From Acidobacteriota bacterium (GTDB lineage: Bacteria > Acidobacteriota > Blastocatellia > UBA7656), in contig JACQDB010000114.1 of assembly GCA_016201275.1 (NCBI GenBank), positions 1 to 32,110 of the forward strand: a stretch of DNA of 32,110 nucleotides, read 5' to 3'. This document shows, one piece after another, positions 9,091-28,833 of this stretch. The notes under the pieces are model-generated. The model ran no database searches and had not been told where the DNA came from. It worked only from the letters and a program-made list of their open reading frames with translations. Each line of letters opens with the position of its first letter. Position 1 is the first letter of the stretch. A program made the position numbers and the translations under genes.

Positions 9091-9186
9091 GCGTTGCGGT
9101 TGCCAATAACGCTTTGTTTAGGTGAAGCACCGAAGAAGAAGACGGATTCATCCATCTGGGATTTACCAAAGAAATTGAGAAAGAGT

Positions 9187-10581
9187 ATGCCGCGAACACT
9201 GTTTGAAAAAATTTGGGACAAGCACATCGTGCATCAGGAAGAGGGACATCCAGCCCTGCTCTACATTGATTGCCATCTGGTTCACGAAGTCACCTCGCCG
9301 CAAGCCTTCGAGGGGTTGCGCCTTGCCAAACGCCAGGTGCGGCGCACCGATTTGACTTATGCGACAGTGGATCACAATGTGCCGACTACCGACCGAGCGT
9401 TGCCGATTCTTGATCCTATCGCCAAACAACAAATCACTACGCTGGAAGAGAACTGCAAAGAATTCGGCGTGCCGCTCTATGGACTCGGCAGCCCTTATCA
9501 AGGCATTGTTCACGTCATCGGCCCGGAACTTGGCATCACCCAACCCGGCATGACGATTGTCTGCGGCGACAGCCACACGGCAACACATGGCGCGTTCGGC
9601 GCGCTCGCCTTTGGCATAGGCACTAGCGAAGTCGAACACGTACTCGCTACACAATGCTTGACCCAGGCCAAGCCGCAAACTTTTCGCATCAACGTCGAAG
9701 GCCAACTGCCGCATGGCGTCAGCGCCAAAGATTTGATCCTCTACATCATTCGCGTCATCGGCACGGACGGCGCTACGGGCTATGTCATCGAATACGCTGG
9801 CGAAGCGATTCAAAAGCTTTCGATGGAAGAACGCATGACGGTTTGCAATATGTCTATAGAAGCGGGAGCCAGAGCCGGAATGATTGCGCCCGATGAAGTG
9901 ACCTATGAATATTTGCGAGGCCGTCAATACGCGCCAGAAAATTTCGCCGCAGCCGTAGCCGATTGGCAAACCTTGCCGAGCGATGACGGCGCGGTGTTTG
10001 ATAAAGAATTGACTCTGGATGTAAGCAATCTTGCGCCGCAGGTCAGTTGGGGGACCAGTCCGGGAATGGTGACGGATGTGACCGGCACCGTGCCGCAACT
10101 GGAAGCGCTCGCCGATGACAATGCCCGCAAGGCGGCGAAAGGAGCGCTCGATTACATGGGCTTGGAAGCCGGTATGCCTATCGCGTGGATTACGATTGAC
10201 CGCGTTTTTATTGGCTCCTGCACCAATTCACGCATAGAAGATTTGCGCGCTGCGGCAGCCGTGATTCAAGGCCGACACGTTGCGCCGACGGTGCAAGCGA
10301 TGGTGGTGCCAGGGTCGCAGCAGATCAAATGGCAAGCCGAACGCGAAGGCTTGGACAAGATTTTCATAGAGGCCGGTTTCGATTGGCGCGAATCCGGTTG
10401 CAGTATGTGTTTGGGGATGAACCCCGATATTTTAAGCCCCGGCCAGCGTTGCGCTTCAACTTCGAATCGTAACTTTGAAGGTCGTCAAGGGCGCGGCGGA
10501 CGCACACACTTAGTCAGCCCAGCGATGGCAGCGGCGGCAGCGATTGAAGGGCGCTTTGTGGATATACGAAATTGGGAATGA
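9187..10581 (+). CDS. leuC: 3-isopropylmalate dehydratase large subunit
   Basis: This is the aconitase-family subunit that, with LeuD, isomerises 2-isopropylmalate to 3-isopropylmalate in leucine synthesis. It has 464 residues, almost the same as E. coli LeuC (466). The three cysteines that bind the 4Fe-4S cluster are present: C345 in FIGSCTNSR, and C405 and C408 in [12 protein letters not shown]. The N-terminus [13 protein letters not shown] matches the family start, so the ATG at 9187 is used. The longer in-frame start at 9094 is rejected because its extra residues have no counterpart. The Shine-Dalgarno is weak (GAGAAAGAG). leuD lies ~440 bases downstream, with a broken small gene between them. 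Confidence 0.97.
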
Positions 10582-10590
10582 TGGGGTGAA

Positions 10591-11014
10591 TTGAGTTATG
10601 AAAGGGTTAAACTGGAAAATTATATTGTCGAATTGCTGAAGCCCTTGAGGAACTCGAAGCAAGGGAAGCGAAAGCAAAACGAGGTGAAAAGATTTCTGAG
10701 TTTGAATTCCAGATGATGTTGGAACACGCCTATCATCATTTGAATTTTGCCTGGAATATTCGCCACATCTCGACCAAAAGATATTCCAAATTAACTAGCG
10801 AGGAATTCGATCAATGGTCGAAATTTCCTAAGAGCGTGTCTGCAAACCCTGGAATCCGTCGCCGTGTCAGTAGCCCGACCGTAAGGGAGGGCTTGCTTGC
10901 ACCAGTAAAACCCTCCCTTACGGTCGGGCTACTGACACGCTTCGCGGTTTGCAGACACGCTCTAAGGAACTTGAAGCCTATTCTATAGGGGAAGACGAGC
11001 CACAAGAAAGTTAA
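10591..11014 (+). pseudogene. Broken small conserved-looking gene between leuC and leuD
   Basis: A TTG start at 10591 with GGGGTGA upstream begins MSYERVKLENYIVE. The frame then shifts: one missing A near 10632 would join it to IAEALEELEAREAKAKRGEK and on through HHLNFAWNIRHIS to WSKFPK. A 129-bp insertion (10833-10961) plus a duplicated CTAAG interrupts it there. After removal it continues [16 protein letters not shown] and stops at 11014. The restored product would be about 96 aa, charged and helical with no membrane segment. The family was not recognised. Its place between leuC and leuD may mean it was once part of the leu operon. The single-base shift could instead be a sequencing error. 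Confidence 0.65.
10833..10961. mobile_element. 129-bp MITE-like insertion with 5-bp target duplication
   Basis: The ends are perfect 16-bp terminal inverted repeats (10833-10848 starting AGCGTGTCTGC, and 10946-10961). Inside is a second perfect 29-bp inverted repeat (10863-10891 with 10911-10939) containing GTAGCCCGACCGTAAGGGAGGG-like sequence. The element is flanked by the direct repeat CTAAG at 10828-10832 and 10962-10966. Deleting the element and one CTAAG copy restores an uninterrupted reading frame, which supports real transposition. It is too short to encode a transposase, so it would have moved in trans. Confidence 0.85.
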
Positions 11015-11022
11015 ACTCAATT

Positions 11023-11622
11023 ATGATACCCTTCATCAGACATACAGGTTTAGTAGCGACGCTGGATCGCGTTCACGTTGACACCGACCAGATTATTCCC
11101 AAGCAATTTCTGAAGCGCATCGAACGCACGGGCTTCGGGCAGTTCCTGTTTTTCGACTGGCGCTTTGATGAAGACGGCGCATTGAAAGAAGACTTCGAGT
11201 TGAATCAGCCGCGCTTTGCCGGCGCAAGCATATTGATAGCGCGCACCAATTTCGGCTGCGGTTCATCGCGGGAACACGCGCCGTGGGCGTTGCAGGATTA
11301 TGGCTTTCGCGCCATCATCGCGCCATCGTTTGCCGATATTTTTTATAACAACTGTTTGCAAAACGGCTTGCTGCCGGTGCGTTTGACGGAAGGTGAAGTT
11401 GAGCAAATTTTTCAGCGCGTGAAGGCCGAAGAAGGTTATCAACTGACCATTGACTTGGAAAATCAAACGGTAACGGATGACGCAGGGCTGCATTTCAACT
11501 TCGCGCTCGATTCTTTTCGTCGCCAGTGTTTGTTGAAAGGGCTGGATAACATCGGCCTGACTCTGCAACACGAAGAGCGCATTCAGGCATATGAAGCGCA
11601 CCGTGGAAGAGTGAGGAAGTAG
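11023..11622 (+). CDS. leuD: 3-isopropylmalate dehydratase small subunit
   Basis: This swivel-domain partner of LeuC has 199 residues, the normal bacterial length. Conserved features are [11 protein letters not shown] near residue 21, the [13 protein letters not shown] active-site loop near residue 75 and [15 protein letters not shown] after it. The stop codon (11620-11622) overlaps the first bases of an octamer inverted repeat. It starts 8 bases after the end of the broken small gene, so it may have been translationally coupled to that gene. Confidence 0.97.
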
Positions 11623-22444: not shown

Positions 22445-22715
22445 GTAGCTCGCGAAGCGAGCGTAAGCATTTAGCTCTTACCTTATGCAGCTAGTCACTA
22501 CCTAGCTGCATAGTAGCTCGCGAAGCGAGCGTAAGCATTTAGCCCCGTGCGTTAGCGCGGGGTGAGAACCAGTATTGTTGTGCAAGCCCGCGAAGCGGGC
22601 GATAGACGAGGGGGTTGGCAAATCTATCGCCCGTTACACGGGCTAGAAAAGGGTTTCGTTTCTCCACCCCAGCCCTTACGGACTGGGCTTTATGCTATCA
22701 CCCGCTTCGCGGGTT
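22445..22715. repeat. REP-like cluster with a perfect 31-bp direct repeat
   Basis: A 31-base unit (GTAGCTCGCGAAGCGAGC...TTTAGC) is perfectly repeated at 22445-22475 and 22513-22543. Between the copies is a palindrome, ATGCAGCTAG/CTAGCTGCAT. Further on are GCCCGCGAAGCGGGC (~22586-22600), a CGGGCGATAG/CTATCGCCCG pairing, and ACCCGCTTCGCGGGT (~22700-22714). The central palindromes resemble those at 19151-19345. No gene was found between 22379 and 22869. Confidence 0.8.
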
Positions 22716-28410: not shown

Positions 28411-28432
28411 AGCCGTTTGCAATTTTTTGTAC

Positions 28433-28807
28433 GGGCGACCCTGCGGTGGTCGCCCCTCCTTCAAAAGCAGGTAGCGGATCAATCGGGAGAGATAGAGTTT
28501 GGAGTTCCGCCTTCAGGCTAATGGCATGAAGTGAAGCGGCATAGCGGCATAGATGTACCGCAGGCTGTCTAGCCGGCGGCGGACTTGGTGGCAGAAGCGC
28601 ACGAAATCCAAGTCTTAGCTTGCCGCTGTCAGCCGCAGACTAGACAGTCTGCGGTACAATTTAACGCCATTGGTCTGAAGGCGGTCTTGTTAGCGGCTGA
28701 AACAACCGCCAGAAGGCGGAACTCCAAACTTCTCTTTTCTCTCCTCCTTGACCCACTACCCAAAAGCAATAGGATTCCAAAAAGGGGCGACCACCGCAGG
28801 GTCGCCC
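28433..28807. repeat. 375-bp nested palindrome between acyl-CoA dehydrogenase and smr
   Basis: The outer arms at 28433-28456 and 28784-28807 are perfect 24-bp reverse complements. Middle arms 28496-28518 and 28708-28730 match at 22 of 23. An alternative partner for part of the left middle arm lies at about 28666-28683. Inner arms 28554-28574 and 28638-28658 match at 19 of 21. The inner right arm overlaps a small perfect palindrome, CCGCAGACT...AGTCTGCGG (28633-28653). The layers look like repeat units inserted one inside another. The plus-strand reading frame across the region is only repeat translation. Confidence 0.88.
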
Positions 28808-28833
28808 ATACATTCTTTGGTCCTTTTAGTTCG

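Follow-up and report, generated by a model that had tools for sequence, protein, structure and literature searches.

A small gene between leuC and leuD interrupted by a probable IS5-family MITE with a REP-like core

The element and the interrupted gene

The stretch of DNA analyzed here (the window) corresponds to C15:1-32110, 32,110 nt of a 6.84-Mb genome assembled in 162 contigs (called G000 in the following). Within it, leuC (9094..10581, + strand; TIGR00170) lies upstream and leuD (11023..11622, + strand; TIGR00171) downstream of a small conserved gene (10641..11014, + strand), which is interrupted by a short element with the appearance of a miniature inverted-repeat transposable element (MITE). 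The element measures 131 bp (10832..10962) if a target duplication of 3 bp is assumed and 129 bp (10833-10961) under a 5-bp reading; a second copy elsewhere in the genome has other flanks. The first-pass annotation had described perfect 16-bp terminal inverted repeats with CTAAG on both sides. These repeats (10833-10848 and 10946-10961) and the two CTAAG motifs (10828-10832 and 10962-10966) are present as claimed, and the perfect pairing in fact extends to 17 bp, from GAGCGTGTCTGCAAACC at the left end (10832..10848, + strand) to its counterpart at the right end (10946..10962, − strand). The probable target duplication, TAA, is located inside the CTAAG motifs at 10829..10831 and 10963..10965.

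Between the terminal repeats, a left spacer (10849..10862) and a right spacer (10940..10945) enclose a REP-like core. The perfect 29-bp palindrome noted earlier was recovered as two perfect arms of 29 bp each, the first, containing GTAGCCCGACCGTAAGGGAGGG, at 10863..10891 (+ strand) and the second at 10911..10939 (− strand), separated by a loop of 19 nt (10892..10910). The length of 131 bp, too small for a transposase gene, and the perfect 17-bp repeats are features of the MITE type.

A chance inverted repeat was ruled out by shuffling, resampling and folding. The terminal 16-mer matches the window twice when up to three mismatches are allowed, both times perfectly, compared with a mean of 0.35 matches in shuffled sequence (2 of 100 shuffles reached two). 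None of 50 Markov-1 resamples of the window contained a perfect 16-bp inverted pair at a spacing of 60–200 bp; in the real window there are 22 overlapping 16-mer pairs, not all of which stem from this element. Folded as DNA, the element yields a z-score of −14.2, and none of 200 shuffles was equally stable. Further families of inverted repeats, some of them REP-like, are found in the window at 75-374, 419-575, 22451-22711, and 28428-28812.

Removal of the element had been proposed to restore a reading frame. This is true locally, as the joined flanks give an open frame down to a stop codon at 11012-11014, but the gene as a whole stays broken by a separate, independent frame break upstream of position 10641, so that it was broken twice. 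The joined product matches a protein of genome G140 (59% over 76 residues, five of them past the junction) and one of genome G062 (35% over 40 residues, two past the junction). Both relatives are continuous at the junction, and neither is located between leuC and leuD in the loci inspected. The interrupted gene was found in 3 of 147 genomes, its own included. It was found in none of the six other genomes of the same family, and therefore no empty site at the same locus is available for comparison.

Instead of being a mobile insertion, the very stable hairpin between two operon genes could have been selected in the leuC-leuD operon as a terminator or as a site of RNA processing. We consider this highly improbable, since copies with the same ends and their own duplications lie elsewhere, since the element splits a gene that is continuous in relatives, and since, by eye, no run of T follows the stem. 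An operon hairpin unrelated to mobility is ruled out by the copies at other sites.

Copies, candidate donor IS and target duplication

The first-pass annotation had suggested looking for other copies with the same ends in the genome, and searching with the element and its ends yielded two intact and four half copies, the window copy included. The second intact copy (C41:28016-28154) is 89% identical to the window copy and flanked by CTTAG on both sides, so that the two intact copies carry different target letters (CTAAG vs CTTAG). By eye, its palindrome loop is inverted relative to the spacers when compared with the window copy, which is what recombination between the arms would do. The half copies, at the end of C92 and on C75, C69, and C9, are cut within the palindrome by another element (called X below) near contig ends. 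Judged from their flanks and X ends, C92 probably pairs with C75 and C69 with C9, which would make two more copies that were split.

Element X has two distinguishable ends (CTTACTTTTACCCATA), for which 33 end places were found in G000. Four X copies of 180–297 bp could be read with both ends (C80:10353-10649, C154:4390-4677, C3:30076-30288, and C94:5099-5278), and among these four, one has a duplication of 10 bp, one (in this core) of 10 bp with one mismatch, one of 9 bp, and one has none. Out of 31 distinct X ends read, 15 lie in the REP-like core, at ACCGTNAGGG; the others are, by eye, often located in other palindromes, and many X places are near contig ends. That IS elements insert into REPs is well documented (PMC1525189).

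Outside of this genome, no match to the element was found in phage or plasmid collections (blastn, maximum e-value of 0.01). A looser end pattern led to two viral contigs, in which no inverted partner was seen by eye within the next ~300 bases. A scan of a contig collection of 84,980 species with CTNAGAGCGTGTCTGCRAACC, in which records of the own genome may be absent, identified eight stretches in two metagenome-assembled genomes (MAGs): JACQEL01 (in the following G148), labeled Deltaproteobacteria, and CAMBFS01 (G147), labeled Klebsiella pneumoniae. The label of CAMBFS01 (loci L152, L155, and L156) appears doubtful, as 3.9 kb of it failed to match any of the E. coli genomes, also when a distant search mode was used.

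Two contig ends of G000 carry pieces of a transposase gene. C139:1-96 (− strand) codes for the N-terminal 32 residues of an IS4/5-type transposase (PF13340, e-value 0.0018, below the family cut-off), and C153:3-197 for the C-terminal 65 residues (PF13586, e-value 2.8e-07, above the cut-off). The gene start on C139 adjoins GAGCGTGTCTGCGAACC and CTAAG, the piece on C153 ends beside GTTCGCAGACACGCTC and TAAG, and the terminal repeats at both places read GAGCGTGTCTGCGAAC, near-identical to the MITE termini GAGCGTGTCTGCAAACC. Because the start and the end of the transposase adjoin near-identical termini at two contig ends, a mobilizing IS is likely present in this genome. We infer that this IS supplies the transposase for the MITE. 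The suggestion that a transposase flanked by the same ends should be found was thus borne out as far as gene pieces beside such ends are concerned, but only these two end pieces were recovered; the complete IS is missing from the assembly, and the middle of the gene appears to be missing as a collapsed repeat would leave it. By eye, the left spacer of the MITE (10849..10862) bears a weak likeness to the IS sequence just inside the end on C139.

A search of the own genome for PF13340 returned no match at an e-value of 0.001, perhaps owing to the truncation of the gene at contig ends. For the C-terminus of the transposase, 30 relatives on plasmids were listed, and many of them are annotated as IS5 family transposase. 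In the class, this C-terminus was found in no other one of 162 genomes at an e-value of 1e-10. A weak match came from G148 (48%, e-value 3e-6, one stop codon). The end pattern, allowing one mismatch, was detected in 6 of the 162 genomes of the class, the own one included. In G132, which belongs to the same class, a similar gene begins next to AAGCGTGTCTGCAAACC ends at two of three loci, again at contig ends, and G003 has one AAGCGTGTCTGCAAACC-type end whose partner was not found.

The claim of a real transposition is supported by the second full copy with its own duplication elsewhere, by transposase gene ends next to near-identical termini, and by the uninterrupted relatives of the interrupted gene. 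The length of the duplication, previously given as 5 bp, is a different matter. At the window copy, CTAAG followed by AGCG ends and TAA followed by GAGCG ends are identical letters, so both readings fit. We compared 16 two-ended copies, four from G000 (two of them the inferred pairs), five from G147, and seven from G148, leaving out one-ended copies. The inner 3 bp were kept in 11 of these 16 copies and all 5 bp in four, 4-bp readings held in seven and eight, and five copies did not retain even 3 bp. Over all 16 copies, the mismatches by flank position were 6, 3, 3, 1, and 6 (outer versus inner positions, p = 0.03).

Target motifs of the type TNA together with GAG-type ends are features of the IS1031 group of IS elements. 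Among four related plasmid IS, the one of Salinivibrio proteolyticus has TTA adjoining GAACC-type ends on both sides, that of Kovacikia minuta does the same provided that one end has lost its last base, that of Polaromonas is flanked by TTA and TAA, and for Azotobacter no end pair was found; a 3-bp TNA duplication is therefore clearly supported by one of the four (Salinivibrio). Elements of the IS1031 group use three-nucleotide targets according to a paper on Leifsonia IS elements (PMC2516522), and two or four target nucleotides are given for members of the IS427 group in Paracoccus (PMC3281130).

From these comparisons of flanks, a 3-bp duplication of the TNA type with 17-bp GAG...CTC ends appears more likely than one of 5 bp, and the earlier 5-bp reading is probably wrong. 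A true target duplication of 5 bp around an element with AGCG ends seems to us unlikely, even though identical 5-bp flanks are found at the window copy, C41, L152, and the C92/C75 pair, and even though the positional test is modest and clear support comes from just one related IS: the 5 bp were not kept in 12 of the 16 two-ended copies versus 5 of 16 for the 3 bp, and elements of the IS1031 group are described with three-nucleotide targets (PMC2516522).

The palindrome inside and outside the element

The element matched 13 of 39 genomes searched, its own included (maximum e-value of 0.001), and the matches listed from other genomes cover mainly the core. We fetched 40 core loci from six other genomes of the class and scored them for MITE ends by motif. 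Thirty loci had no MITE end, and the remaining ten, all from G027, had at least one end of a different kind (TATAGCG type). In five other genomes of the class the core stands alone as inverted doublets, and in G036 it occurs as single arms. The palindrome is thus wider than the element, and its occurrence on its own in these genomes suggests that it originated outside the element and was captured rather than generated inside it. One of the 30 motif-negative loci (L103; G027:C110:11757-12469) shows, by eye, the core between GAGCGTG...CACGCGC ends; these are GAGCGTGGACGAAAAC-like with CTAA/CAAG flanks, perhaps another IS5-type MITE.

Within G000, we surveyed 22 core stretches, leaving out the weakest places (C144, C122, and C119). 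Six of them carry the ends of this MITE, corresponding to four copies, and 12 carry at least one TATAGCG-type end, so that 18 of the 22 are associated with an end of one of two MITE types whose ends are unrelated. In several cases among the 12, the stretch is a half left by the insertion of X, and the copies are accordingly fewer than the stretches. One of the 12, C77, also matches the end motif of this MITE loosely, which we take as chance. As for the other four, the stretch on C154 looks derived from the TATAGCG type by eye, the stretches on C93 (near 68967) and C110 have neither end type, and in the stretch on C52 the core motif was unmatched. On C52:101-260 (L044), a sequence starting with AAGTAGGTAGGCAAAAG truncates a copy of the palindrome beside an X end and may be another insert. 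In two families of the class, the same core was seen inside the second type of MITE, whose TATAGCGGTTTGCA-like ends were judged by eye to be TA-type (L013-L018 and L024, and in G027 L099, L101, and L102). The first-pass annotation had hinted that some REP-like sequences in this genome are spread by such elements. This is supported for G000, where 6 and 12 of the 22 stretches have ends of the two MITE types; the palindrome, however, is wider than the element and stands alone elsewhere.

The core has the tetranucleotide GTAG, is arranged as an inverted doublet, and occurs in many copies. GTAG is the tag of a REP superfamily, as described in PMC3733652, and the palindrome might accordingly be mobile in its own right, as a REPIN under the control of a RAYT tyrosine transposase, with REPINs having jumped into an older IS-derived element. 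The stand-alone doublets in five other genomes and the single arms in G036 would fit this scenario, as would the finding that matches to Y1 transposases were obtained in all 12 genomes searched, 98 in total. However, when 28 of these 98 loci, all own-genome matches among them, were fetched with ~600 to 1500 bases around, the core was not found beside the transposase gene in any of them. In addition, the copies share the spacers as well as the core and have outer duplications, and therefore the whole unit moved. We regard the palindrome as the mobile unit as improbable; a REPIN jump may have been the first origin of the composite. GTAG and the inverted doublet are present but the core is absent near the fetched Y1 loci, and for this reason we call the core REPIN-like, with no RAYT gene beside it in 28 loci.

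The ends of the MITE also occur around another palindrome. Of the 12 two-ended copies from G147 and G148, 11 enclose a ATTGCGAG/CTCGCAAT palindrome, unlike the GTAGCCCGACCGT palindrome found here; the twelfth, a copy of 774 bp, is without the ATTGCGAG/CTCGCAAT palindrome. This copy (L192; G147:C18:33076-33849) has the same ends and contains a number of further palindromes; what looks by eye like a remnant of the right end of the IS is also present. Conversely, TATAGCG-type ends flank the GTAGCCCGACCGT palindrome in two families of the class. Because the same 16–17 bp ends enclose different palindromes and the GTAGCCCGACCGT palindrome sits between other ends, it is conceivable, as a speculative extension, that one kind of IS5-type end pair serves as a general vehicle for REP-like palindromes, taking up in each bacterium the palindrome family that happens to be available. 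A long hairpin might then aid the transposition of a short element, for example by joining its ends, and MITEs rather than RAYTs would spread the repeats.

Interpretation and related systems

Taken together, the locus is best explained as a non-autonomous IS5-family MITE, most likely with a 3-bp TNA duplication, which is moved in trans by a resident IS5-type transposase and carries the palindrome as a passenger; we assign this reading a probability of roughly 0.88. The MITE has no transposase of its own; a putative IS5-type enzyme, represented in this genome by the two end pieces of its gene, would act on it in trans. The MITE would have inserted at a CTAAG site in the small gene between leuC and leuD, and the REPIN-like palindrome, two inverted arms with GTAG that occur independently in related genomes, would be copied along at each transposition of the MITE.

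A MITE insertion of this kind is ordinary; of more interest is that REP-like palindromes were apparently captured repeatedly. For one transposition, the target can be seen together with its sister copies, with fragments of the probable donor IS, and with relatives of the target gene that have no interruption. More generally, REP-like palindromes may have one route of spread as passengers inside IS-derived elements, with no transposase of their own, and this palindrome in turn is a landing site for a further element, X. What mobilizes REP-like repeats that are not found at the flanks of any RAYT gene thereby becomes a testable question. Two patterns appear worth following, namely one end pair with different palindromes in different bacteria and one palindrome in different end pairs.

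Among the papers listed in searches of the literature, titles and the beginnings of abstracts gave no description of this element or its palindrome, and a search by sequence letters listed matches that, judged by their titles, look like chance. Several known systems are comparable. IS5 elements of the IS1031 kind share the IS5-type transposase of the candidate donor and the probable three-nucleotide target (PMC2516522), but the MITE described here has no transposase gene, and its core palindrome also exists outside of it. REPINs, described in Pseudomonas fluorescens and others, are likewise inverted doublets, in which palindromic REP units fold into one long hairpin (PMC3116915); in contrast to them, the core has no RAYT gene beside it in 28 loci, and 18 of the 22 stretches in G000 carry MITE ends. 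QMITE2 of Coxiella burnetii is also a MITE with a GTAG palindrome, hit there by another IS, IS1111, but its duplications are 7–9 bp and its terminal repeats 23–29 bp long (PMC10969869), compared with 3 (or 5) bp and 17 (or 16) bp in the IS5-type element here. RUP of pneumococcus is similarly gene-less and has ends in common with a resident IS by which it is presumably mobilized (PMC2229807). RUP, however, goes with IS630-Spn1 and TA, whereas the MITE between leuC and leuD goes with an IS5-type gene and, most likely, TNA.
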